In this document: positions 14,532 to 28,917 of the stretch, piece by piece
Position numbering within the stretch: position 1 is the first letter of the stretch
Layout: each line of letters begins with the position of its first letter
Assembly: GCA_913778085.1 (NCBI GenBank)
Contig: CAJYXJ010000020.1
Span: 62,001 to 126,000, forward strand
From: an uncultured Chryseobacterium sp.
GTDB taxonomy: Bacteria; Bacteroidota; Bacteroidia; Flavobacteriales; Weeksellaceae
Reading direction: 5' to 3'
DNA length: 64,000 nt
Translations under genes and position numbers: made by a program
The notes under the pieces: generated by a model
The model's input: the letters and a program-made list of their open reading frames with translations, nothing else
Told to the model about the DNA's origin: nothing
Database searches by the model: none

Positions 14532-15071
14532 TTATTTTTCCACCCATTCTTCTCGAAGAACGGCAAAAATAATATCATCTACCCAGCGATCTTTCCAGAA
14601 CAGGCTTTTCACAAAATGGCCCTCTCTGCGGAGTCCTACCCGTTCCATCAGACGGATGGAATCAAGATTACCAGGGTCAACGGATGCCATAATCCGATGC
14701 TTTTTGAAATCGGTAAACAACAAACTGATTATTCCTTTCAGTGCTTCGGCCGCGAAACCTTTTCCCTGGAAGTTTTTATTTAAGGTAATTCCAAGCTCAG
14801 TCTGCAGGTTTTCGTTTCCGAAGAAGTGAATTCCGATATCGCCGATGACTTCCCTCGTTTCTTTATCGGTGATCAGAATCTGGTACCAGCTTTCAGGCTG
14901 GTTGAATTCTTTATGATTCCTCAGTATAAAGTTTTCCACTTCCTTAAGGCTTGTCGGAATCCAGCTCTGGAATGTATTGGCTTCCGCATCAGAACGGTAA
15001 TCAAAAATAGCAGGTGCATCATCAATGGTCATATCCCGCAGCAATAATCTTTCCGTATAAACTTGCATCAT
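14532..15071 (-). CDS. GNAT N-acetyltransferase, RimJ/RimL-like
   Basis: 179 residues, acetyl-CoA-dependent N-acyltransferase. N-terminal TERLLLRDMTIDDAPAIF is typical of the RimJ/RimL/spermidine-like subgroup; the acetyl-CoA pyrophosphate loop is in NFQGKGFAAEALKGI; the C-terminal strand holds IRLMERVGLRREGHF. I take the ATG at 15069-15071 (a second ATG is adjacent at 15066-15068); the longer frame would overlap bioA. It starts 31 bp after bioA and is probably the last gene of the biotin transcript, but nothing ties its substrate to biotin. Confidence 0.9.
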   Translation of the reverse strand: MMQVYTERLLLRDMTIDDAPAIFDYRSDAEANTFQSWIPTSLKEVENFILRNHKEFNQPESWYQILITDKETREVIGDIGIHFFGNENLQTELGITLNKNFQGKGFAAEALKGIISLLFTDFKKHRIMASVDPGNLDSIRLMERVGLRREGHFVKSLFWKDRWVDDIIFAVLREEWVEK

Positions 15072-15102
15072 CGTCGTATATTTTCCTGCAAAAATAGGAT
15101 TA

Positions 15103-16380
15103 TTATGGTGAGACTTCCAATTCATCAAGAACTTCCATGATATTGCGGTAAACAACATCGAGTTCTTCGGAAGTGATGCAATAGGGCGGAACCAAGTATA
15201 GGACGTTCCCCAAAGGACGCATGATGATTCCCCTTTCTAAAAACTTCCGGTAAGCGGCTTTTCCGGTTTCGTTAAAATAAGAAGTGCGGGTGTTATTTTT
15301 TATTTCCCACGCCAGAATGGTTCCGGTTTGTCTTACGTGTTCAACCTTCGGATGCTGCATCAGCTTTTCTGAAAAACTTTGATGTTTCTTACAAATAAGA
15401 TCAATAGCACACAACGTTTCTTCTTTCAGCAGAAGTTCCATACTGGCAAGTGCCGCGGTACAGGCTAGAGGATTTGCTGTAAAAGAATGCCCGTGGAAGA
15501 GGGTTTTATAACGGTCCTCTGAGAAAAAGGCTTCAAAAATGCAGTTGATGGCGGTAGTGATTCCCATCGGCATCGTTCCGCCGGTCAGACCTTTGGAGAA
15601 ACACATGATATCGGGTTCTTCCTCCAGGTAATCAGCAGCAAACAATTTTCCCGTTCTGCCGAAACCGGTAAATACCTCATCCTGGATCATCAGAATGCCA
15701 TTTTCCCTGCAGAACCTCATGAGTTCCGATAAATCTTCCGGCGCATGCATCAGCATTCCCGCTGCTCCCTGAACCAAAGGCTCGTAAATAAAACAAGCCA
15801 GTTCTTCCGAATGTTCTTGAATGATTGATTTCAATTTGTGGATATTCCCAGAAGTCGGCGGATCGATAAAAATAACTTCAAAGAGCATTTCTCCGAAAGG
15901 TTGTGTCCAGGCACTCCGGCCGCTTACCGACATCGCTCCGAAAGTATCGCCGTGATAAGCATTTTTAAAAGCTAAAATCTTTGTTTTCTGTTTACCTGTA
16001 TTATAAGCAAACTGGATACACATTTTCAGCGCCACTTCCACTGCGGTCGAACCGTTGTCGGAATAAAAAACCTTCTCCTGGTTCTCCGGCAACAGTTTCA
16101 GCAGATTTTCGGAAAGCCGTACTGCCGGCTCATGCGTGAAGCCGGCAAAAATAACCTGTTCCAGGGTATAGAGCTGCTCGGAAACCTTTTGGGCAATATA
16201 AGGATGCGCATGGCCGTGGAGCGTCACCCACCAGGAAGAAACGGCATCGATGTATTGTTTTCCCGCATCATCAAAAAGGTAGATTCCTCTTCCTTTTATA
16301 ATAGCAATGGCATCTTCTGCGGTTTTCATCTGAGTATACGGGTGCCAGTTAACGGCGCGGTCGCGTTGGGAGAGGTTCAT
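15103..16380 (-). CDS. bioA: adenosylmethionine-8-amino-7-oxononanoate aminotransferase
   Basis: PLP-dependent class III aminotransferase of 425 residues that converts KAPA to DAPA with S-adenosylmethionine as amino donor. Recognised by NWHPYTQMKTAED at the N-terminus, SSWWVTLHGHAHP (DAPA/SAM pocket), the PLP-binding Lys in MCFSKGLTGGTMP, QDEVFTGFGRTGK, and LFHGHSFTANPLAC. Full length for the family. It lies in the biotin cluster but is separated from bioB by about 490 bp of repeat-bearing spacer, so it may have its own promoter or depend on read-through. Confidence 0.96.
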   Translation of the reverse strand: MNLSQRDRAVNWHPYTQMKTAEDAIAIIKGRGIYLFDDAGKQYIDAVSSWWVTLHGHAHPYIAQKVSEQLYTLEQVIFAGFTHEPAVRLSENLLKLLPENQEKVFYSDNGSTAVEVALKMCIQFAYNTGKQKTKILAFKNAYHGDTFGAMSVSGRSAWTQPFGEMLFEVIFIDPPTSGNIHKLKSIIQEHSEELACFIYEPLVQGAAGMLMHAPEDLSELMRFCRENGILMIQDEVFTGFGRTGKLFAADYLEEEPDIMCFSKGLTGGTMPMGITTAINCIFEAFFSEDRYKTLFHGHSFTANPLACTAALASMELLLKEETLCAIDLICKKHQSFSEKLMQHPKVEHVRQTGTILAWEIKNNTRTSYFNETGKAAYRKFLERGIIMRPLGNVLYLVPPYCITSEELDVVYRNIMEVLDELEVSP

Positions 16381-16872
16381 GTATTGGGTATTTTTAGATT
16401 TGTTAGTGGTTTGAACATTAGTCTATTGATTTGATTGTGGTGAATGGATGGATCAATTGTGAATTTAGTTGCTGGCAGAAACAATGTTTTTGATATAAGA
16501 TTTAGCATGAATAAGTAAATGGTCAATAATCACTGGTGAATGATAGATTCAGAGAGCAGTTTAATCTGTAATTTTTAATTAAAATTCAAATGGTAAATAG
16601 CTGGTTTTGAATTAAATAATAAATAAAAATTCTGGCCGTTTCAAAAATATTTGTCGAATTTAAGTCAGCATTGATAATTAAGTATTCACCTCTTTGCAAA
16701 GTCGCCGACAACAAAATTCATGGCAATGGCAACTGGTGAACGATCTTTTAAAATTGACCATTCACCATTGACTATTGACCATTAACCATTAACCATTAAC
16801 ATTGTAGCTAAGGCCTAAGCAACCAAAGTTCATCACAAAACGACCGTTGAACTACACCTCAAAATTAACCAT
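16381..16872. other. repeat-rich spacer between bioA and bioB
   Basis: No coding frame. The right half carries runs of short near-repeats of the type ACCATTAAC / ATTCACAATTCACC, and AATGGTGAA-like units occur scattered across the rest. It splits the biotin genes into two blocks. Confidence 0.6.
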
Positions 16873-16890
16873 TCACAATTCACAATTCAC
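16735..16890. repeat. short tandem/dispersed repeats (CCATTNAC / ATTCACC type)
   Basis: From 16749 a unit of about 7-8 bp (gaCCATT, taaCCATT, ttcaCCATT) recurs many times, then ATTCACAATTCACAATTCACC at 16864-16890. The end of the array runs into bioB and encodes its last residues. Related sequence occurs at 27964-28135 and 35757-35945. Confidence 0.65.
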
Positions 16891-17862
16891 CTTCGTTTGT
16901 CCCATTGGCTTCAGCCCTAACGTCTGCAACAGCTGAAGATCTTCCGAAACACCGGGATTCGGGGTTACGAGAAGAGTCTCCCTTTCACCGGTAAAAATAG
17001 AATTGGCACCGGCCATAAAACACCAGCCCTGCTCAAACTCCGTCATTTCAATCCTTCCTGCGCTGAGACGGACCATGGAAGAAGGCATGATGATTCTCGC
17101 AGCGGCGATCATCCGAACCATTTCCCAGGTATTGGTTTTTTCATTATCCTGAAGCGGTGTTCCGGCTACTCTCGCCAATGCATTGATCGGAACTGATTCC
17201 GGATGCTTCGGCATGGTGGACAGCGTCAGCAGCATGGAAATACGGTCGTTGTGGCTCTCTCCCAATCCGATAATGCCTCCCGAACAGACGGTAATCCCCG
17301 CTTTCCGTACGTTATTGATGGTATTGATCCGGTTATCAAAAGTCCGGGTTGAAATGATTTCTTCATAATACTGCTCCGAGGTATCAAGATTATGATTGTA
17401 AGCATATAATCCCGCTTCCTGAAGCCGGATTGCCTGTTCTTCCGTAAGCATTCCCAAGGTACAGCAGACCTCCATGCCAAGTTCGTTTACCCCTTTCACC
17501 ATATCGATTACCCGGTCGAAATCCCTGTTGTTGCGGACTTCCCTCCAGGCGGCGGCCATGCAGAAACGGGACGATCCGCCTTGTTTCGCCTTTTTTGCAT
17601 GTTCGATTACCTGTTCGGTAGGAAGCAGGGCTTGGACTTTAATATTTGTATGATAACGCGCGGCCTGTCCGCAATAGAAGCAGTCTTCTGGGCAGCCTCC
17701 GGTTTTAATGGAAAGCAGTGTGGACATCTGGATTTCTTGCGGATTGTGCCACTTGCGGTGAACGGTAGCGGCCTTATAAATAAGTTCAAGAAGAGGAAGG
17801 CTGTAGATGTCTTCAATTTCTTCTTTGGTCCAGTCGGTTCGTAATGCAGTTTTATCGGTCAT
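16873..17862 (-). CDS. bioB: biotin synthase
   Basis: Radical SAM enzyme, 329 residues, which inserts sulfur into dethiobiotin. The radical-SAM cluster motif is [12 protein letters not shown] (Cys57, Cys61, Cys64, C-x3-C-x2-C). Ligands of the auxiliary [2Fe-2S] cluster lie in [10 protein letters not shown] and [11 protein letters not shown], and the conserved YNHNLDTS and [12 protein letters not shown] segments are present. The start overlaps the end of bioD by 11 bp, so they are translationally coupled. The last residues (VNCEL) are encoded by the spacer repeat, which suggests the natural 3' end was replaced by repeat sequence without harm. Confidence 0.97.
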
Positions 17863-18499
17863 AAATTTTTAATGTTTTTGTTATAAGTTCTATATTTTCT
17901 TCGGTCACTTCTTCCAGATCGGGAATTCTTATGATTTCGGTTTCGGGTGGAATATTTTTGCAGATTATATTTTCCGTATCTGCAGGGAAACTTCCGTTGA
18001 GGATGATGTACCGAAGCCTGATATTTTTCGATTGTAAAGCCATCATCGACAGTAAAGTATGATTGATGCAGCCCAGATAATTCCTTACGACCAGAACGGC
18101 CGGAACATTCAGTTTGGCGATCAGATCCATGATATATTCGTTATTATTTAAGGGAACCATTAGTCCTCCGGCACCTTCTACAATGAGATGATTCTGGGTT
18201 TCAGGTAGTTTGATTTTATTTAAATCAATTGTAATCCCTTCTTCCTTTGCCGATTGATGTGGCGAGGCAGCCAGCTTAAAGCGGTAAGCTTCAGGATAGC
18301 AGACGGTATTTTCACCTGTCCAGCATTTGATTTTCATCGAGTCGGAAAAATTCAGGTCTCCCGACTGGACGGGCTTCCAGTAATCCGCCTGGAAATATTT
18401 TGCCAATACCGCAGAACACACGGTTTTCCCGATTTCCGTGCTTATTCCGGTGATAAAAAGTATTTTTTGCTCAGGGTTTTCCTGCTGATCTGAATTCAT
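17852..18499 (-). CDS. bioD: dethiobiotin synthetase
   Basis: ATP-dependent carboxylase of 215 residues that closes the ureido ring of DAPA. The P-loop is GISTEIGKT (residues 18-26; the usual form is GTDTEVGKT), followed by WKPVQSG and the [11 protein letters not shown] motif. Slightly short of the E. coli length but complete. It begins 35 bp after the bioF stop codon and overlaps bioB. It acts between bioA and bioB in the cytoplasm. Confidence 0.95.
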
Positions 18500-18534: not shown

Positions 18535-19641
18535 CTATAAAAATTCTTTAATTATTCGTGCCAGCGCTTTAATTTCACTTTCGGTGTTAAAACTGTGCAG
18601 ACAGATCCGCAGGCGTTCGGTACCTTCTTTTACGGCAGGACTCAAAATGGCATAGGTTAAAAAACCATTTGTCAGCAGAGAATCATTCAGTGCTCTTACC
18701 CGTTTATTGTCGGGAATTATAATTGCCTGAACAGGACTGTTTGCAGCAGAAGGGCTTTCGATCTGCTGATCACCGAATATCTGGATATTGCGCTGAAGAA
18801 GGCTTAAAAGTTCCTGATTGTTTTTCAGGAAATGATAGCCTTCCCTAATGCTCATCCAAAGGAAATCCTGCGCGGAAGTGGTATAGATAAAGGGCGATGC
18901 AAAATTGATAAGATAAGATCTGATGGTTGTGTTCGTCAGCACTGCTGCCCCATGCATTCCCAAAGCTTTTCCATAGGTAATGACCGTTGCTAAAACATGA
19001 TCCTGTAATTTAAATTTATCTACCAAACCATAGTTGAAAACGCCGAAAGCATGGGCTTCGTCCACAATTAATCCGGCATTGTATTTTCCGGCAGTTCTGG
19101 CGATTTCTTTAATCGGTGCGACATCGCCGTCCATTGAATACAGGCTTTCGATAGCGATATAGCAGGTTCCGGTTTGTTTTTTTAAAATCTGCTCCAAATG
19201 ACGGCAGTCATTATGTTTGAATTTCAATTTTTTGGCGTTGGACAGTTTGCAGGCGTCATGAACCGACCGGTGAATCTGTTCATCCACAATAATCGTGTCG
19301 TGACGAGTTGGTAATGTAGAAAACAAGGCGAGATTGGCGTTATAGCCAGAGGAAAAAAGCAGTGCTGATCCGTACCCGTGTTCATCCGCAATAAATTCTT
19401 CGGTTTCCACAACGGAATTGCTGTTTCCGCTGATGAGTCTCGATCCCGTGCTTCCCATTAGCAGTTCCGGATTTTCTGTTATGGATTTTAGAAGAATATT
19501 CTGAAAATCCTTGTTTCCGGATAAGCCTAAATAGTCGTTGGAATAAAAATCTGTTCCCTGTCGTCTGCCTTTTAGGATTCTCAACGTTCCGTTGTCTTCC
19601 CTTTTTGCTAAGGCTTCCTGAAAGTATGAATGGCTAAACAT
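18535..19641 (-). CDS. bioF: 8-amino-7-oxononanoate synthase
   Basis: PLP-dependent alpha-oxoamine synthase, 368 residues, condensing pimeloyl thioester with alanine to KAPA. Features: YSNDYLGLSG, GSTGSRLISGNS, DEAHAFGVFNYG, the PLP lysine in ITYGKALGMHGA, and SPFIYTTSA. I place the start at the ATG at 19641; the longer open frame to 19725 lies inside the preceding gene and does not resemble the family. The start overlaps the preceding di-iron gene by 8 bp, so translation is probably coupled. KbI/HemA-like synthases are related, but the bioDBA neighbours fix the function. Confidence 0.94.
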   Translation of the reverse strand: MFSHSYFQEALAKREDNGTLRILKGRRQGTDFYSNDYLGLSGNKDFQNILLKSITENPELLMGSTGSRLISGNSNSVVETEEFIADEHGYGSALLFSSGYNANLALFSTLPTRHDTIIVDEQIHRSVHDACKLSNAKKLKFKHNDCRHLEQILKKQTGTCYIAIESLYSMDGDVAPIKEIARTAGKYNAGLIVDEAHAFGVFNYGLVDKFKLQDHVLATVITYGKALGMHGAAVLTNTTIRSYLINFASPFIYTTSAQDFLWMSIREGYHFLKNNQELLSLLQRNIQIFGDQQIESPSAANSPVQAIIIPDNKRVRALNDSLLTNGFLTYAILSPAVKEGTERLRICLHSFNTESEIKALARIIKEFL

Positions 19642-20257
19642 AGTCCGGCTGCATAACTTCTCCTGCAACAGCAATGATCCATTGTTGATGAAGCACCTGT
19701 TCCATCTTAAGAATAACCTCAGCATGGATCTTCCAGTCTGCTGAAAATTGACCCAGCTGATGAATCATTTCTTCCAAGTGCCCTTCCTCTTCCAAAATAA
19801 TCGATTTTACCAGGATTTTTGAGGAATGCTTTGTCAGCACCTCCTGATAGACCGGATATAATGCATCGGCACGGACTTCGATGGCATATGTTACAAAAAG
19901 ATAAGCTGCATATTTCAGTTCTTCTCTGGATAAGCGGAAATGCTCCTGAAGATACCGGCAGGCTTTCATATCCAGCGCATGAAGATAATGCCTTGTTGCC
20001 ATTGAGGCCAGCAATTCATCACTTTTATACGTTTTACAGATTTCGGGACTTATCTTTAAAATCTGCTTTTTCAGGTAATACGAGTGGCGGTGTTCTTCTG
20101 CGGCATGCTTCAGCTGGATCAGGCTGACTTCCGAAGGATGCTCACAGGCAGAGATTTTCCGTGCGCCTGCATTTTCCATAAAAGATAAAGTATTGAGCCA
20201 TTTTGCGTGAACCGTGTCGTATGCTACAATCTTTTCAAGAAGAGGTTGTAATTCCAT
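19634..20257 (-). CDS. predicted ferritin-like di-iron protein heading the biotin operon
   Basis: 207 residues, all-helical, not a named biotin enzyme. Ligand spacing fits a four-helix di-iron site: Glu28 (helix 1, SFMENAG), Glu55-x-x-His58 (EEHRHSYYL), Glu127 (YAIEVRAD) and Glu157-x-x-His160 (LEEEGHLEE). The intervals 28 to 55 and 127 to 157 are those of ferritin-like oxidases and oxygenases. No signal peptide, so cytoplasmic. It is the first gene of the operon and overlaps bioF by 8 bp. None of bioC, bioH, bioG, bioI, bioW or bioZ is in the window. I infer, without proof, a redox step tied to biotin, for example making or trimming the pimeloyl precursor. A scaffold or iron-sensing role is an alternative. 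Confidence 0.8.
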   Translation of the reverse strand: MELQPLLEKIVAYDTVHAKWLNTLSFMENAGARKISACEHPSEVSLIQLKHAAEEHRHSYYLKKQILKISPEICKTYKSDELLASMATRHYLHALDMKACRYLQEHFRLSREELKYAAYLFVTYAIEVRADALYPVYQEVLTKHSSKILVKSIILEEEGHLEEMIHQLGQFSADWKIHAEVILKMEQVLHQQWIIAVAGEVMQPDYV

Positions 20258-20322
20258 TATGATTTTGTTTGGTTCAAAAGTAGTATATTGCCGGATGGTG
20301 ACAGGGTGCCAGTTTTAAGATT
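20258..20322. promoter_or_regulatory. divergent promoter region, biotin operon / MocR regulator
   Basis: The 65-bp gap must hold both start regions. On the minus strand TACTTTTG (20275-20282) matches the -7 consensus 18 bp before the biotin operon start, giving a leader of about 10 nt. No equally good box is seen for the regulator. Such a compact shared region is where a MocR-type protein would bind. Confidence 0.55.
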
Positions 20323-21804
20323 ATGGATAGTCCGGTTGAGATTCCTTACAAGAGTTTTATTAAAATCGATAGAAATTCAAGGGTTTCTATGTATTTGCAG
20401 ATTTCAAATCAATTGATCAATGCTATTCAGCGTGGCGCTTTACCCTTCGGCACCAAGCTGCCGGGAACACGTACTTTAAGCCGGATTCTGAATGTCCATC
20501 GTAATACGGCCGTTTCCGTATACGACGAATTGTTTGTTCAGGGGTGGGTGGAAAGCTTTCCCAATAAAGGTACTTTTGTAATCGGCAAAGCTCAGAATCA
20601 TTCTTCGGAAATAAGAGCTTTTGAGAAAAAGCATCTGGAAAATTACCCGAAACAGACCGGTTTTCCTTTTAAAACAACCAATATTTTAGACAATCCTTTT
20701 GAACAGTCGCCGTGTGAATATATTTTTAACGATGGCATTCCCGATATCCGCTTGACGCAGGTCGATCAGTATTCCCGGATTTACACTTCCCTGCTCAAAA
20801 GAAAAGCCCATAAGATCGGGCAGTACAATCAGGACGGAAGCGAATTTTTCAAACAGCACCTTTCAAAATATTTAAATCTTTCCAGAGGACTTCCGATTTC
20901 AAAAAACAACCTGCTGATTACCCGAAGCACGGAAATGAGCATCTATATTGTTTCAGAAATCCTTTTATCAAAAGGAGATACGGTTTTGGTAGGCGAACTG
21001 AGCTACTTTTCCGTTAATATGATCTTTCAGAAAGCAGGGGTTACAATAGAGTCTGTACCAATTGATCATGAAGGCATCGATGTAGAAGAAGTAAGAAAGA
21101 TCTGCAGGACCAGAAAAATAAGAATGCTTTACCTTACCCCGCACCATCACTATCCTACGACGGTTACTTTGAGTGCACAGCGGCGGCTCGAACTTTTACA
21201 GCTCGCCGAAGAATTCGGCTTTATTATTCTTGAAGATGATTACGATTATGAATTCTATTACGATAAAAGCCCGATCCTTCCCCTTGCCAGCGCAGATACG
21301 AACGGTATGGTGGTTTATATCGGTTCCTTTGGAAAATCACTGGCTCCCGGATTCCGTACCGGCTTTATTGTGGCTCCCGAAAACCTGATGGCGGAAATGA
21401 GGAAATACCTAGGCATCATAGACCGGCAGGGAGATATCCTGATGGAGCACGTATTGGGCGAAATGATTGCCGAAGGGGAAATCAACCGTTATCTCAAGAA
21501 ATCATTAAAGGTATATCAGGAAAGAAGGGATTATTTTTCACTGCTGCTTCAGGAACATCTGGGGAATTTTTTACATTTTGAAAAACCTTCCGGTGGCTTG
21601 GCTCTGTGGCTGGAATGGCAGATTCCGGTGAATCTTATGCAGCTGGCTAAAAACTGTGCCCAGAACGACCTGTTTATACCCAAAACGCTCTTGTATCAGA
21701 ATAAGAATCTTTCCGCAATGCGTCTTGGCTTCGGCAACCTGAATACGGAAGAAATGGAAAAGTCCGTACAGATTTTTTCTGAAACGCTAAAAGTAATGAT
21801 CTGA
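20323..21804 (+). CDS. MocR/PdxR-like GntR regulator with aminotransferase domain
   Basis: 493 residues. An N-terminal GntR winged helix (about 15-85; LPFGTKLPGTRTLSRILNVH, NTAVSVYDELFVQGWVE) is fused to a fold-type I aminotransferase domain (about 120-490). The PLP lysine is Lys338 in GSFGKSLAPGFRTG. MocR proteins bind PLP and often an amino compound and control adjacent genes from divergent promoters. It is divergent from the biotin operon, two products of which (BioF, BioA) are PLP enzymes acting on amino substrates. Control of the biotin genes, with KAPA, DAPA or PLP as effector, is a reasonable inference. Control of vitamin B6 genes elsewhere is the alternative. Confidence 0.93.
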   Translation: MDSPVEIPYKSFIKIDRNSRVSMYLQISNQLINAIQRGALPFGTKLPGTRTLSRILNVHRNTAVSVYDELFVQGWVESFPNKGTFVIGKAQNHSSEIRAFEKKHLENYPKQTGFPFKTTNILDNPFEQSPCEYIFNDGIPDIRLTQVDQYSRIYTSLLKRKAHKIGQYNQDGSEFFKQHLSKYLNLSRGLPISKNNLLITRSTEMSIYIVSEILLSKGDTVLVGELSYFSVNMIFQKAGVTIESVPIDHEGIDVEEVRKICRTRKIRMLYLTPHHHYPTTVTLSAQRRLELLQLAEEFGFIILEDDYDYEFYYDKSPILPLASADTNGMVVYIGSFGKSLAPGFRTGFIVAPENLMAEMRKYLGIIDRQGDILMEHVLGEMIAEGEINRYLKKSLKVYQERRDYFSLLLQEHLGNFLHFEKPSGGLALWLEWQIPVNLMQLAKNCAQNDLFIPKTLLYQNKNLSAMRLGFGNLNTEEMEKSVQIFSETLKVMI

Positions 21805-22013: not shown

Positions 22014-23039
22014 TTGAAGCTTATCAAATTTACAAACAAAGGTATCTACTGCCCACAGGGAAAATTTTACATCGATCCCTGGCGGCCGGTTGATCTTGCG
22101 GTTATCACCCACGGACATGCCGACCATGCACGCTGGGGAATGAAAAAGTACCTCTGCCATCATTTTACCAAACCTATTTTATACAAAAGAATCAGCGAGG
22201 ATATCGAATGCCAGAGTGTAGAATATGGTGAAGTCATCAATATGAACGGCGTTAAGGTTTCGTTTCATCCTGCCGGGCATATCATTGGTTCGGCACAGAT
22301 CCGTCTGGAATATAAAGGCTATGTAAGTGTCATATCCGGCGATTATAAAGTTCAGGACGACGGTTTGAGCACGCCTTTCGAGCTGGTACGGTGCAACGAA
22401 TTTGTAACGGAAAGTACATTCGGACTGCCAATTTACAACTGGCTTGAAGTGGACGACCTGAACAAGAGACTCCAGAACTGGGTGCTCCGGAATAAGGAAA
22501 ATCAGAAAACCTCCGTGTTTATCGGGTATTCCCTTGGCAAAGCCCAGAGGATCATGAAAGCGGTGGAAGGAATGGGAAAAATCCATGTCCACTATTCGAT
22601 CGGAAAGCTGAATGAGGCTTTTGAAACGGTCGGGATTAAGCTACCTGAATATGAAATTCCGGATTTCAGGGAAAGTATTAAACATGTGCAGGACGAAATC
22701 GTGATTGTCCCGCCTGCTTTAATGGATTCCAATGTGATTAAAAAAATACCCAATGCAGCGATCGCCATCTGTTCCGGCTGGATGCAGGTCCGGGGTGCAA
22801 GACGCTGGCGGAGTGCCGATGCCGGATTTGCCATGAGCGACCATGCCGACTGGAAAGGCCTCCTTCAGGCCATCAAAGCTACGGAAGCGGAGATCGTACA
22901 CGTTACTCACGGACAGACCGAGGTTTTCTCCAAATATTTAAATGAGATCGGAATTCAGTCTGATGTCGTAGAAACCCTGTACGGTGACGATGATGAAGAG
23001 GAAGTTGAAAAAGAAACCGTTAAAAAGCAGGAGCCATGA
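22014..23039 (+). CDS. ligase-associated MBL-fold DNA exonuclease
   Basis: 341 residues, metallo-beta-lactamase/beta-CASP-type nuclease. The metal motif is THGHADH (His33, His35, Asp37, His38), with further ligands in PAGHIIGSAQ, SGDYK, SDHADW and VTHGQTE. It has a TTG start at 22014. Its stop overlaps the start of the DNA ligase gene in an ATGA, so they are translationally coupled. In the known four-gene cassette (exonuclease, ligase, DEXH helicase, PdeM), such proteins are thought to trim ends in a DNA damage response. Confidence 0.93.
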   Translation: MKLIKFTNKGIYCPQGKFYIDPWRPVDLAVITHGHADHARWGMKKYLCHHFTKPILYKRISEDIECQSVEYGEVINMNGVKVSFHPAGHIIGSAQIRLEYKGYVSVISGDYKVQDDGLSTPFELVRCNEFVTESTFGLPIYNWLEVDDLNKRLQNWVLRNKENQKTSVFIGYSLGKAQRIMKAVEGMGKIHVHYSIGKLNEAFETVGIKLPEYEIPDFRESIKHVQDEIVIVPPALMDSNVIKKIPNAAIAICSGWMQVRGARRWRSADAGFAMSDHADWKGLLQAIKATEAEIVHVTHGQTEVFSKYLNEIGIQSDVVETLYGDDDEEEVEKETVKKQEP

Positions 23040-24616
23040 AAAATTTCGCCGAACTGATCAATGCCTTGGAAAGCACCAATAAAACCAATGCTAAAATTGA
23101 TGCCATCATCGATTATCTGGAGCGGGCCCCCGATAATGATAAAGTGTGGTTCATTGCTCTCTTTACCGGTAAAAGGCCGAAACGAAATGTGAACAGCAAT
23201 TACATGAAAGAATGGGCACTGGACATAACGCAGCTGCCTTTCTGGCTGTTCCAGGAAAGCTATTCTTCCGTAGGAGATCTTGGAGAAACGATATCGCTGA
23301 TCCTTCCGCCACCAACGGAAAAGATTGAACGTTCCCTGTCCGAATGGATGGACGATATCGTAAACCTTAAGAATAAGACAGATGCTGAAAAAAAAGAATT
23401 TATCCTCACTTCATGGAACGGGCTGGATTATACGGAACGGCTGATTTTCAACAAACTGCTCGGCGGCAGTTTCCGGATCGGAGTTTCCGATAAAACGCTG
23501 ATCAATGCACTGACGAAATTTTCCGAACAGGAATCAAGTGCGCTGATGCACAGTCTCATGGGAAAATGGCTGCCGAATGAAGTCTCTTTCCAGGAGTTGA
23601 TTGATGCAGAAAATGTGAATCCGGACAACTCAAAGCCATACCCGTTCTGTCTGGCCTATCCGCTTGAAAAAGATCTGGATGAACTCGGAACGCCGGATGA
23701 ATGGCAGATTGAATATAAATGGGACGGCATCCGAGGACAGATCATCAAAAGAAACGGCGAAGTTTTTATTTGGTCAAGAGGTGAAGAATTAATCACGGAA
23801 CAGTTTCCGGAAGTAAAAGAAGCCGTTGAAAAAATGAACGGCAATTTCGTGATCGACGGGGAAATCCTGGCGGTAAAAGATGATAAAGTTTTAAATTTTA
23901 ACGAACTGCAGAAACGCCTGAACCGGAAAACATTAACCAAAAAGATGTTATCCGAAATCCCGGTAGAGGTTTTTGCTTATGATCTCCTTGAACTGGAAGG
24001 TAATGATTTGAGGGAAAAACCGATTTCCGGAAGACGGGCGATGCTGGAAGAATTGTTATTAAATGAAACTCCGGAAAACATCAAACTCTCTGAAGTTATT
24101 GAATTTAATGAATGGAACGAACTGGATAAGATCAGGGAAGCTTCCAGGGAAATCAACAGTGAAGGCCTGATGTTGAAGCAGAAGAATTCGCTCTATCATT
24201 CAGGAAGAAAAAAAGGCGACTGGTGGAAGTGGAAGATCAATCCGCTGACGATTGACGCCGTATTAATCTATGCCCAAAAAGGAAGTGGACGAAGAAGTGC
24301 TTATTACACCGATTATACCTTTGCCGTAAAAAACGGAGATAAACTGGTGACGATTGCCAAAGCCTATTCCGGATTAACGGATAAGGAAATCATGGAAGTC
24401 AGCAAGTTCGTAAACAAAAATGCCATCGAAAAATTCGGCCCCGTAAGAACAGTTAAAGCAGAGTTGGTTTTTGAAATTGCCTTTGAAGGCATCGGATTCA
24501 GCAGCCGCCATAAAAGCGGTGTTGCACTGCGTTTCCCGAGGATCCTGAGATGGCGGAAAGATAAGACGGTAGATGAAATTGACGAACTGGAAGAGGTGAA
24601 GAAACTGATACAGTAA
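23036..24616 (+). CDS. ATP-dependent DNA ligase (LigB/LigC-like, repair cassette)
   Basis: 526 residues. An N-terminal helical DNA-binding domain (about 1-195) leads to the nucleotidyltransferase core with the adenylation motif EYKWDGIRG (Lys228), then FVIDGEILA, FAYDLLELEG, EGLMLKQKNS and KGDWWKWK, and a C-terminal OB fold ending in GVALRFPRILRWRKDK. It seals nicks using ATP, unlike the NAD-dependent replicative LigA. Overlap with the exonuclease gene by 4 bp indicates joint expression. The length fits the ligases of this cassette. Confidence 0.95.
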   Translation: MKNFAELINALESTNKTNAKIDAIIDYLERAPDNDKVWFIALFTGKRPKRNVNSNYMKEWALDITQLPFWLFQESYSSVGDLGETISLILPPPTEKIERSLSEWMDDIVNLKNKTDAEKKEFILTSWNGLDYTERLIFNKLLGGSFRIGVSDKTLINALTKFSEQESSALMHSLMGKWLPNEVSFQELIDAENVNPDNSKPYPFCLAYPLEKDLDELGTPDEWQIEYKWDGIRGQIIKRNGEVFIWSRGEELITEQFPEVKEAVEKMNGNFVIDGEILAVKDDKVLNFNELQKRLNRKTLTKKMLSEIPVEVFAYDLLELEGNDLREKPISGRRAMLEELLLNETPENIKLSEVIEFNEWNELDKIREASREINSEGLMLKQKNSLYHSGRKKGDWWKWKINPLTIDAVLIYAQKGSGRRSAYYTDYTFAVKNGDKLVTIAKAYSGLTDKEIMEVSKFVNKNAIEKFGPVRTVKAELVFEIAFEGIGFSSRHKSGVALRFPRILRWRKDKTVDEIDELEEVKKLIQ

Positions 24617-24885
24617 ATTTAAATTATGACGGAATATAACTGCACCAACCATTGATCTACTCAGACATAAAAGATTTTAGGCTGAGTTTCGTCTGAAATG
24701 AATCAAACCTTCAATTTTATTTTGACCATAATTAATATTTTAATAGACACTCAACAGTATCGGACAATTATAGACCTATGTTTTTATAGGTATTGTTAAA
24801 TTATCACGGTGTTTAAGTTAAATATTTACAGGCTCTGCAGGTTTTTTATAAAATCTTCTTAACTTCTTCGATTTGAAATACGAAA

Positions 24886-25323
24886 ATGAAAATTATAAAA
24901 ATGGTTGGAGCCGGTCTGATCATATCCGGTCTGTTATTGGCAGCTATTTTAATAGGTAACAAAACGGAAGTAACAATAGGAAATGCTGCTTACCATAAGA
25001 ACTACGAAAATATATATCCGCCGGACTGCTTCATTATTTTCGAAAATAAAAAATATCTTATTAAGGATCTCTATAAATATAAAAGTAAGATACTGAAAGA
25101 ATACAGCTTTGCCGCAAGTGAAGGTTTCGCGACACAAAAATTCACTTTTCCTTTTGAAATGAATTACAGTAATGAGCAGAAAAAAAGGGTCATCTTAAGA
25201 TATTCCGGGAAAGCGGCGTTTGTAAATTTCGATTCCCATCAGTATAAAATCAGCGAAAAAAGAAAGGATACGCTTATTTCAAAAATAAACAGCAATGAGC
25301 TTATTCTGTTCATAGAAAAATAG
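24886..25323 (+). CDS. small membrane-anchored protein of unknown function
   Basis: 145 residues: one N-terminal membrane helix (VGAGLIISGLLLAAILIG) and a soluble, Lys/Tyr-rich domain (IFENKKYLIKDLYKYKSK, KFTFPFEMNYSNEQ). No lipobox and no motif I can name. It sits between the ligase and helicase of the repair cassette, with 269 bp before it and 194 bp after, so it is probably an independent insertion rather than a cassette member. Confidence 0.65.
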   Translation: MKIIKMVGAGLIISGLLLAAILIGNKTEVTIGNAAYHKNYENIYPPDCFIIFENKKYLIKDLYKYKSKILKEYSFAASEGFATQKFTFPFEMNYSNEQKKRVILRYSGKAAFVNFDSHQYKISEKRKDTLISKINSNELILFIEK

Positions 25324-25517
25324 CATCTAAATAAACACCGGTCATTTACAGAATTTATATTCTGAAATGCCTGATTAAAGATTATAAATGCTGAATTTAC
25401 CATATGTTCTTTATTATAAAAATATTTTGGTTAAAAAATTGATACTATAGATTGCGGCACGAAGCCTGCAAAGAATAGGCTTTTAGACATCGTGTAAACA
25501 ATAAACAGATTTACAAT

Positions 25518-27965
25518 TTGACAGCATTTGAAAATACCGGCGGCTACCAAATCATTCAGGACTGGATGAGCGGAAAGGGCATTGCTCCTTTTAAGTTTCA
25601 GACGGAAACCTGGTGGAAATTCGGGAACGGCTACAGCGGAATGGTGGTGGCTCCAACGGGTTTTGGAAAGACCTATTCTGTTTTTTTAGCCCTGATTTCC
25701 GATTTTCTTAACCATCCCGACAAATACGGGAAAGGATTGAAGATGATCTGGATCACACCGCTCCGCTCGCTTTCCAAAGATATTGCCAAGGCCATGCAGG
25801 AGGCCATTGATGAGATCGGCCTTGACTGGGTCGTTGGTGTAAGGAACGGCGATACCGATCCGAAAATCCGCCAGCAGCAGGTGAAAAATATGCCGGATAT
25901 CCTGGTAGCAACGCCGGAAAGCTTACATCTGTTGCTCGGACAAAAAAACCACCAGAGGTTTTTCACTAATTTAAAGACCATCGTGATAGACGAATGGCAT
26001 GAACTGCTGGGCTCAAAACGGGGCGTAATGATCGAACTCGGAATTTCCCGGCTTAGAACGTATGTTCAGAAAATGAAAATCTGGGGTATTACCGCTACCA
26101 TCGGCAATCTTGATGAGGCAATGGAAGTCCTGATTCCTTATGACATCAAAAAAACAAAAATAACGGCCAAGGAGAAAAAGAAAATCGATATTCTTTCTGT
26201 TTTTCCGGATGAAGTTGAAATCCTGCCCTGGGCAGGACATCTGGGCCATAAATTAGCTGATAAAGTCGTTCCGATCATTCTGAATTCCAATTCCACAATT
26301 GTTTTTACAAATACGCGTAGCCAGAGTGAAATGTGGTACCAGCTTTTGCTGAATGCCTACCCTGACTTTGCCGGACAGATCGCCATCCACCACAGTTCGA
26401 TTGACGCCCATCTCAGAATCTGGATTGAAGAAAACCTGAGCAATGGAAAATTAAAAGCTGTGGTTTCCACCTCATCACTGGATCTGGGAATCGATTTCAA
26501 GCCGGTGGATACAGTGATCCAGATAGGATCTGCTAAAGGAGTAGCCCGATTCCTGCAACGGGCGGGACGAAGCGGGCACTCCCCTTTTGAAACCTCAAAA
26601 ATTTACTGTGTTCCGACCCACTCTCTCGAGCTGATCGAGGTTTCAGCCTTAAAGGAAGCGGTAAAAAATAACGTTATCGAACCCCGTGATCCGCAGGTTT
26701 TGTGTTTCGATGTTCTCGTACAGTTTCTGATGACCCTGGCAGTCGGCGATGGGTTTATTCCTGACGAATTGTATCCAAGGATCAAAGAAACTTTTGCCTT
26801 CCGGGAAATGACTGAAGAAGAATGGAAAGGCATGCTGGATTTCCTGACTATCGGCGGAAAAGCCCTTAAAAGTTATGAAGAATTCCATAAAATCGTTGTG
26901 GATGATAACGGCGTTTATAAGGTGACTTCCCGGAGGATTGCGATGCTGCACCGGATGAATATGGGCGTGATCGTCAGTGATGCCATGTTGAAAGTAAAAT
27001 TTATTTCCGGCGGTTATATCGGGATGGTGGAAGAATATTTTATTTCAAGGTTAAAAAAAGAAGATAAATTTATCCTCGCCGGACGCGTGCTGGAGGTTGC
27101 GATGATTAAAGACATGACTGTTTTTGTACGCGCTTCCAAAGGTAAAGCTTTTGCTCCCAGTTACCTCGGCGGGAGGCTTCCGTTAAGTACCAATCTCGGC
27201 CAGTTCTTAAGGGAAAAATTATCCGGCGCACTCAATCCCAAAGCTTCCGAAAAAGAACTGAAATTTCTTCATCCGCTATTGGCCAATCAGGAAGAACGTT
27301 CCCACATTCCTGAGGAAAACGAGTTCCTCGTGGAACTTATCAAAAACCGCGAAGGTTATCACTTGTTTATGTATCCTTTTGAAGGACGGCTGGTACACGA
27401 GGTAATGGCGGCTCTGGTTGCCTACCGGATTTCCAAGCTGGCTCCGATTTCTTTTTCGATGGCGATGAACGACTACGGTTTTGAATTGTTCAGTGATAAG
27501 GAAATTCCGCTGAATGAAGATAATCTGGACCGCATTCTGACGAGGGACAATTTGATGAATGATGTGATTTCCAGTATCAATGCCGCAGAAATGGCACGGA
27601 GAAAATTCAGGGATATTGCGGTAATTTCGGGAATGGTGGTCCAGAACTTTCCGGGACAGCAAAGGTCCAACAAATCGCTTCAGAGTTCGGCAGGACTGAT
27701 TTTTAAAGTGTTGGAAGATTACGATCCGAATCATTTCCTGGTGCGGCAGGCCTATACGGAGGTCTTTAATGCCCAGCTTCAGGAGCAGCGACTTGTCGAA
27801 GCCTTCAAACGTATTGAAAAGTCAAAAATAATCCTGAAATTCGCCAATACATTTACCCCGCTGAGTTTCCCAATAAAAGTCGACAGCTTAAGGCAGACCC
27901 TTTCCAGCGAAGACCTGGATTCGAGGATACAAAAGCTGATCCAACAGACGAGAAAAGTGAAATAG
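25518..27965 (+). CDS. ligase-associated DEXH-box helicase (Lhr-like)
   Basis: 815 residues, SF2 helicase. Walker A in APTGFGKTYS (Lys51), ITPLRSLSKD (Ia), LVATPESLHLLL, the DExH box DEWHELLGSKRG (Asp158-His161), GITATIGN (III), IVFTNTRSQSE (IV), STSSLDLGIDF (V) and FLQRAGRSGHS (VI). The C-terminal region resembles the Lhr core. The start is a TTG at 25518. It belongs with the exonuclease, ligase and PdeM as a DNA damage response set. Repeat-type sequence starts right at its stop codon. Confidence 0.94.
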   Translation: MTAFENTGGYQIIQDWMSGKGIAPFKFQTETWWKFGNGYSGMVVAPTGFGKTYSVFLALISDFLNHPDKYGKGLKMIWITPLRSLSKDIAKAMQEAIDEIGLDWVVGVRNGDTDPKIRQQQVKNMPDILVATPESLHLLLGQKNHQRFFTNLKTIVIDEWHELLGSKRGVMIELGISRLRTYVQKMKIWGITATIGNLDEAMEVLIPYDIKKTKITAKEKKKIDILSVFPDEVEILPWAGHLGHKLADKVVPIILNSNSTIVFTNTRSQSEMWYQLLLNAYPDFAGQIAIHHSSIDAHLRIWIEENLSNGKLKAVVSTSSLDLGIDFKPVDTVIQIGSAKGVARFLQRAGRSGHSPFETSKIYCVPTHSLELIEVSALKEAVKNNVIEPRDPQVLCFDVLVQFLMTLAVGDGFIPDELYPRIKETFAFREMTEEEWKGMLDFLTIGGKALKSYEEFHKIVVDDNGVYKVTSRRIAMLHRMNMGVIVSDAMLKVKFISGGYIGMVEEYFISRLKKEDKFILAGRVLEVAMIKDMTVFVRASKGKAFAPSYLGGRLPLSTNLGQFLREKLSGALNPKASEKELKFLHPLLANQEERSHIPEENEFLVELIKNREGYHLFMYPFEGRLVHEVMAALVAYRISKLAPISFSMAMNDYGFELFSDKEIPLNEDNLDRILTRDNLMNDVISSINAAEMARRKFRDIAVISGMVVQNFPGQQRSNKSLQSSAGLIFKVLEDYDPNHFLVRQAYTEVFNAQLQEQRLVEAFKRIEKSKIILKFANTFTPLSFPIKVDSLRQTLSSEDLDSRIQKLIQQTRKVK

Positions 27966-28135
27966 TGAATGGTGAATTCTGCTTTGCAGGCCAATTTTGC
28001 TTTGCAAGTGAATATTGTGATCGTAAAATTAACAAACGTCCAAATTTCACTATTCAGCAATTACTCATCGTAAAAGTCAATGATGAATGGTGAATTTTGC
28101 TTTGCAAATGAATTTTTGGAGCCATTCAACAATTG
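27966..28135. repeat. GTGAATGGTGAATT / TTTGCTTTGCA repeats
   Basis: GTGAATGGTGAATTCTGCTT at 27965-27984 is echoed by GATGAATGGTGAATTTTGCT at 28082-28101, and TTTTGCTTTGCAA occurs twice (about 27994-28006 and 28096-28108). The same family appears at 16735-16890 and 35757-35945. The rest of the interval to the PdeM start has no gene. Confidence 0.6.
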
Positions 28136-28272
28136 ACAAGCGTAATATACTAACTATTAAGTATTCAATTTGTATGTTGTACTGAAAGTGAATATTTAAA
28201 CTAAAAAAAAAAATGACAAGCAAAGCGGAATGGCCATTGACTATTCGCCTTTGACCTTTGCATAATTAAAAA

Positions 28273-28917
28273 ATGAAAATCGTAATAAAAAATATAACCC
28301 TTCAGAACGAACAGTTTACCATCACCAATCAAAGGGCTTTATTCTGGAAGAAAGAAAAAGCACTGGTGCTCTCCGATCTGCACATCGGTAAAGCGGCGCA
28401 TTTCCGGAAAAACGGGATTGCCCTGACCAGCCATCTGATGAAAAACGACCTGGAAAGGCTTTCGATTCTGATTGAATATTTTCAGCCTGAAAAGTTTATC
28501 GTGGTCGGCGATCTGCTGCATGCAGGAGACAATTCGGATGTTGATGAGTTCTGTGAATGGCGAAATCAATATCCCGATCTGCAGTTTTATCTGGTCGAAG
28601 GCAATCATGACCGTCTTTCAAAAAAACTGGAAGCGAAATTATGCCTGAACCATAGATCAAAATCCTTTGAGAACGGAGACTTTCTTTTTATCCATGACTT
28701 TGAGAAAAAGCAGGAGAAATTTCAGGTGACGGGCCATATCCATCCCGGATTTGTCATCCATTCTTCCGTAAAGAAAATAAAGCTGCCCTGTTTCGTAGTC
28801 ACCGATAACCAACTGCTGCTTCCGGCCTTCAGTGAATTTACCGGGCTGGATACAAAAAATCTCCCAAAAAAAGGAAGATTCTATGTTTTCACCGATGCTG
28901 AGATTTATGAGATTTAA
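28273..28917 (+). CDS. pdeM: ligase-associated metallophosphoesterase PdeM
   Basis: 214 residues, calcineurin-like phosphoesterase with all metal motifs: LSDLHIGKAAHFR, GDLLHAGDN, EGNHDRL, and GHIHPGF. Fourth member of the ligase-associated DNA damage response cassette, in which it is thought to act as a 3' phosphoesterase or endonuclease cleaning DNA ends. Separated from the helicase by 307 bp of repeat-bearing spacer, so it may have its own promoter. The symbol follows current naming for this family. Confidence 0.92.
   Translation: MKIVIKNITLQNEQFTITNQRALFWKKEKALVLSDLHIGKAAHFRKNGIALTSHLMKNDLERLSILIEYFQPEKFIVVGDLLHAGDNSDVDEFCEWRNQYPDLQFYLVEGNHDRLSKKLEAKLCLNHRSKSFENGDFLFIHDFEKKQEKFQVTGHIHPGFVIHSSVKKIKLPCFVVTDNQLLLPAFSEFTGLDTKNLPKKGRFYVFTDAEIYEI

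Follow-up and report, generated by a model that had tools for sequence, protein, structure and literature searches.

A gene at the head of a Chryseobacterium biotin operon very probably encodes BioE, a di-iron oxygenase supplying the pimeloyl precursor

The closest described relatives of the protein analyzed here are the BioE proteins, which were described in PMC12915131 (December 2025) as di-iron oxygenases of Elizabethkingia and Chryseobacterium and, as cited there, were first reported in a PNAS paper of 2025 (e2501226122, PMC12704756). BioE cuts a long-chain acyl-ACP or acyl-CoA at C7-C8, which yields a pimeloyl thioester. Its orthologs convert C14-C18 acyl-ACP to pimeloyl-ACP in a reaction that needs O2, and EmBioE of Elizabethkingia meningoseptica converts C18-CoA to pimeloyl-CoA. 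CpBioE of Chlamydia psittaci contains about two Fe per monomer, loses its function when any ligand is replaced by alanine, and yields undecanoic acid as the second product (PMC12915131). In E. coli, BioE orthologs take the place of BioC-BioH, and deletion of bioE in E. meningoseptica results in biotin auxotrophy. In vivo, EmBioF reportedly works with pimeloyl-CoA exclusively, and for this reason the acyl-CoA activity may be the relevant one in the BioE family. BioL is a MocR-type repressor. The same product is formed from long-chain acyl-ACP by BioI of Bacillus subtilis; BioI, however, is a heme P450 (PMC12915131), whereas the protein considered here gave no match to a P450 in Pfam.

The window, which is the complete stretch of 64,000 nucleotides that was analyzed, contains the following genes around the putative bioE:

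15103 to 16380, minus strand: bioA, adenosylmethionine-8-amino-7-oxononanoate transaminase; TIGR00508 over the cut-off
16873 to 17862, minus strand: bioB, biotin synthase; TIGR00433 over the cut-off
17852 to 18499, minus strand: bioD, dethiobiotin synthase; TIGR00347 over the cut-off
18535 to 19641, minus strand: bioF, 8-amino-7-oxononanoate synthase; best NCBIfam model TIGR00858, below the cut-off, and position
19634 to 20257, minus strand: bioE, predicted ferritin-like di-iron oxygenase, 207 aa; ligands E28, E55, H58, E127, E157, H160
20323 to 21804, plus strand: bioL, MocR-type regulator with GntR HTH and aminotransferase domain; R50, PLP lysine K338

The open reading frame from 20257 to 19634 comprises 207 codons in the ORF list of the window, and its translation carries E, E, H, E, E, and H at positions 28, 55, 58, 127, 157, and 160, which confirms all six residues of the pattern Glu28, Glu55xxHis58, Glu127, and Glu157xxHis160 that had been noted in the initial annotation. 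The 8-bp overlap with bioF given there also holds, on the minus strand, when the ATG at 19641 (MFSHSYF...) is taken as the likely start of bioF; the start of the bioF reading frame at 19725 is a mechanical extension of the frame. The bioF product scored 282.9 bits with TIGR00858, compared to a cut-off of 426.45 (NCBIfam). As had been proposed, bioE is the first gene of the biotin operon, with the order bioE-bioF-bioD-bioB followed by a gap of 492 bp and bioA. The genes bioB and bioD overlap by 11 bp in the window, which differs from the bioEFD and bioBA units of E. meningoseptica described in PMC12915131. Within the 492-bp gap, a tandem array of the 7-bp unit ATTGACC with 6.4 copies is located at 16753-16797. 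A GNAT open reading frame at 14532-15158 is present near bioA in only part of the related loci and was not counted as a member of the operon.

Comparison of the residues assigned this protein to BioE. When mapped by the residue numbers given in PMC12915131 and not by sequence alignment, the ligands E26, E53, H56, E125, E155, and H158 of EmBioE corresponded to those of the window protein at a constant offset of +2 (6/6), and E41, E68, H71, E140, E170, and H173 of CpBioE did so at an offset of -13 (6/6). All four inhibitor-pocket residues of EmBioE were matched, as were 9 of the 11 acyl-pocket residues of CpBioE, with two differing. Five of the seven named CoA-region residues of EmBioE agreed, while the other two differed (K46 to Q48 and Q88 to H90). 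The six ligands were kept in 72 of 72 relatives on named contigs, which indicates that the ligand pattern is not a chance product. The BioE of E. meningoseptica and Chryseobacterium described there shares with the window the six ligands at one offset, the pocket residues, the adjoining bioF and bioL, and the prediction of a ferritin-like di-iron protein. CpBioE, on the other hand, is reported to be a monomer that acts only on acyl-ACP and belongs to a genus without bioL (PMC12915131), whereas the window contains bioL. The search for BioE proteins in the published work used a threshold of >40% identity, with 85% of EmBioE covered.

No credible family for the bioE product was found in Pfam, NCBIfam, or PHROGs (best E-values of 0.088, 0.15, and 0.085, respectively), and sequence searches of the PDB gave only noise, with ribosomal protein L9 at 0.049 and bacterioferritin at 0.44. 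Prediction of the structure, which had been suggested as a check, resulted in a model with a pLDDT of 91.7 and a helical bundle that matches solved di-iron oxygenases. Its nearest folds were proteins with aldehyde-deformylating oxygenase activity and MiaE, in a fold comparison and not a search, which calls for caution in the case of helical bundles; these proteins showed only 13-16% identity to the window protein in the fold alignments and use other substrates. A Foldseek search with the predicted model returned nothing at an E-value of 0.001 or below, with F-BAR helices on top. The earlier assignment to ferritin-like di-iron enzymes agrees with this predicted fold near the di-iron oxygenases and with a ligand spacing that fits that of published BioE at all six positions.

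Relatives of bioE were collected by a scan of genome contigs that needs exact short peptides, so that distant relatives are missed. The resulting 72 loci on named contigs were mostly from Chryseobacterium and also from Pedobacter, Sphingobacterium, Chitinophaga, Flavobacterium, Empedobacter, and Hufsiella; no locus of Elizabethkingia or Chlamydia was returned by this exact-short-peptide scan. The closest relatives of the window were Chryseobacterium and Weeksellaceae MAGs, with 81% identity, which points to Chryseobacterium as the probable genus of the host. A locus of C. indologenes (L076), a species in which bioL was deleted in PMC12915131, shows the same arrangement as the window, with 73% identity for bioE and 77% for bioL. 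The initial annotation had asked whether homologs are linked to bioF, bioD, and bioB; a biotin gene was located within 300 bp of bioE in 72/72 loci, being bioF in 67, bioA in 4, and bioB in 1 of them, and bioF, bioD, bioB, and bioA were all present in the fetched stretch of 66/72 loci. Some arrangements deviate. In six loci (L095, L096, L097, L099, L114, and L116), bioE adjoins bioA and no match to bioL was present in the fetched stretch. In Chitinophaga varians (L090:4268-7636), bioL, bioE, and bioB stand together, with no match to the bioF, bioD, or bioA of the window in the fetched stretch. In another locus (L117), a BioF-like open reading frame with 43% identity is convergent with bioE, the ends of the two being only a few bases apart.

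The gene also co-occurs with bioB at the level of genomes. Including the host, the genus was represented by 37 genomes, 33 of them with bioE and 34 with bioB over the cut-off; the three that lack bioB (G011, G019, and G031) lack bioE as well. In the fourth bioE-negative genome (G021), the contig with the biotin genes begins inside bioF, which means that bioE would lie past the edge of the contig. Among 23 genomes from other families of the order, bioE was found in none and bioB in 9, so that the pimeloyl moiety of these 9 comes from a different route or from an imported precursor. In a sample of 296 Bacteroidota genomes, bioE was present in 11 and bioB over the cut-off in 149, with both in 11/11 of the bioE genomes (hypergeometric p of 0.0004, with relatedness ignored); 138 of the 149 bioB-positive genomes gave no match to bioE. 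Gene, ligands, predicted fold, neighbors, and the co-occurrence with bioB were shown here for the window locus itself.

Evaluation of the proposed function needs to consider other routes to the pimeloyl moiety in the host. That no bioC, bioH, bioG, bioI, bioW, or bioZ is visible in the window could be extended to the genome for BioC, BioH, and BioW, which had no match over the cut-off there, and in the case of BioI to the observation that the sole P450 lies on another contig. For BioC, 13 matches were obtained in the host genome, with a best score of 75.6 compared to the cut-off of 184.95 bits, and for BioH, 11 matches with a best score of 70.3 compared to 206.95. BioW had no match in the host genome, with two controls being positive, and BioG had none in the host genome and likewise none in the controls, which makes the BioG result uninformative. 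Absence of the other routes from the host genome is supported by these data but not proven. BioE could nevertheless act on another biotin intermediate or help in another step, while an unrecognized BioC-BioH-like pair makes the pimeloyl moiety. Such a pair might be hidden among the 13 methyltransferase and 11 hydrolase matches below the thresholds, two of the hydrolases covering almost the full BioH model, and divergent versions could be missed because the strict cut-offs for BioC and BioH were each passed by only 1 of the 14 control genomes; the best scores, however, remained far below these cut-offs, and the replacement of BioC-BioH by published orthologs and the auxotrophy of the E. meningoseptica mutant (PMC12915131) speak against this possibility, which we regard as highly improbable. 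Even less probable is the supply of the pimeloyl moiety by a P450 elsewhere in the genome that resembles BioI, itself a P450 cleaving acyl-ACP (PMC12915131), since the only P450 of the host (445 aa) is encoded on contig C13, away from the contig of the window, and the solved proteins that rank best against it are other P450s, such as 7wzl ("putative cytochrome P450"), plant LUT5, and CYP3A4, with no biotin P450 named among the best 60 of 170.

Supply of the pimeloyl moiety by BioE is the reading that agrees with the sequence, the gene context, and the predicted fold, all of which match published BioE. The window protein is, judged from these features, almost certainly BioE, a di-iron oxygenase that would cleave a long-chain acyl thioester to a pimeloyl thioester and would be repressed by the divergently encoded BioL.

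Regulation of the operon leads to this BioL. The gene is divergent from bioE across a spacer of 65 bp, and in 66/72 loci a bioL is located within 400 bp of bioE, the exceptions being L087, L093, L095, L096, L097, and L099. Its product contains a GntR-type HTH and an aminotransferase-like domain, both over the cut-off (Pfam), and R50 and K340 of EmBioL correspond to R50 and K338 in the window protein. Both features are general to MocR proteins, and the best NCBIfam model was PdxR with 315.4 bits, just below the cut-off of 320, so that the name BioL rests mainly on the position; by position and type, the gene at 20323-21804 is most likely that of the published repressor. Beside bioL, at 22014-28917 on the plus strand, are open reading frames that resemble, as read by eye, a metallo-beta-lactamase-type exonuclease, an ATP-dependent DNA ligase, an Lhr-type helicase, and a metallophosphoesterase. 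This set is similar to the known Exo-Lig-Lhr-MPE repair cluster.

Two elements were assigned in the spacer between bioE and bioL:

20288 to 20312, minus strand: candidate BioL operator CTGGCAC-N11-CCGGCAA; pattern match, from bioE-bioL spacers
20275 to 20282, minus strand: bioE -7 box TACTTTTG, matching TAnnTTTG

The motif TAnnTTTG, which we take to be the Bacteroidota -7 promoter box, was present in 66/66 bioE-bioL spacers of the named loci, and the pattern CTGGYAC-N11-CCGGYAA in 64/66; the two others (L090 and L091) contain degenerate forms, with L090 having a longer spacer and two degenerate operator-like sites. In the window, the candidate operator adjoins the -7 box without overlap. With gaps of 8 to 14 permitted, the site at 20288-20312 was the single match in the host genome and none was found ahead of bioA; this single match alone means little because the backwards control gave two. 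In 25 genomes of the genus, the pattern yielded 40 matches compared to 9 for the backwards control. Just before bioE were 22 of the 40, one in each of the 22 genomes that have bioE, and 18 were located elsewhere. The two of the latter that were inspected, in G007 and G021, fall within a GTPase-like reading frame and were regarded as chance matches. The conserved spacer site is proposed from its sequence as a candidate BioL operator. It may already be in print, as the EMSA probes for BioL, which are about 50 bp long and called "palindromic", are contained in Table S2 of PMC12915131.

With some reservation, it may be suggested that in the genus BioL works via one dedicated site in the spacer beside the -7 box of bioE, which would control bioE and perhaps bioL itself, with no second match in the genome, bioA included. 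Some loci of the Sphingobacteriales have bioE paired with bioA and no bioL beside it; this would mean, as the other part of this suggestion, that BioE is restrained in another way there.

Together, BioE would draw on O2 and electrons to break a long-chain acyl-ACP or acyl-CoA at C7-C8, releasing a shorter fatty acid and leaving a pimeloyl thioester. BioF, from the overlapping next gene, would accept the pimeloyl group, BioA, BioD, and BioB would complete biotin, and BioL, divergent from bioE, would repress from the common spacer. Iron content, cleavage, oxygen need, and repression by BioL would be properties transferred by homology from what was published for the orthologs of E. meningoseptica and C. 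psittaci. The suggestion in the initial annotation that the gene supplies the pimeloyl moiety, functionally like BioI, was right in this respect but already in print, most likely for the very same genus, the window gene being a typical BioE. PMC12915131 presents BioE as the fourth of the routes that supply the pimeloyl precursor for biotin, and also as a potential target for drugs.
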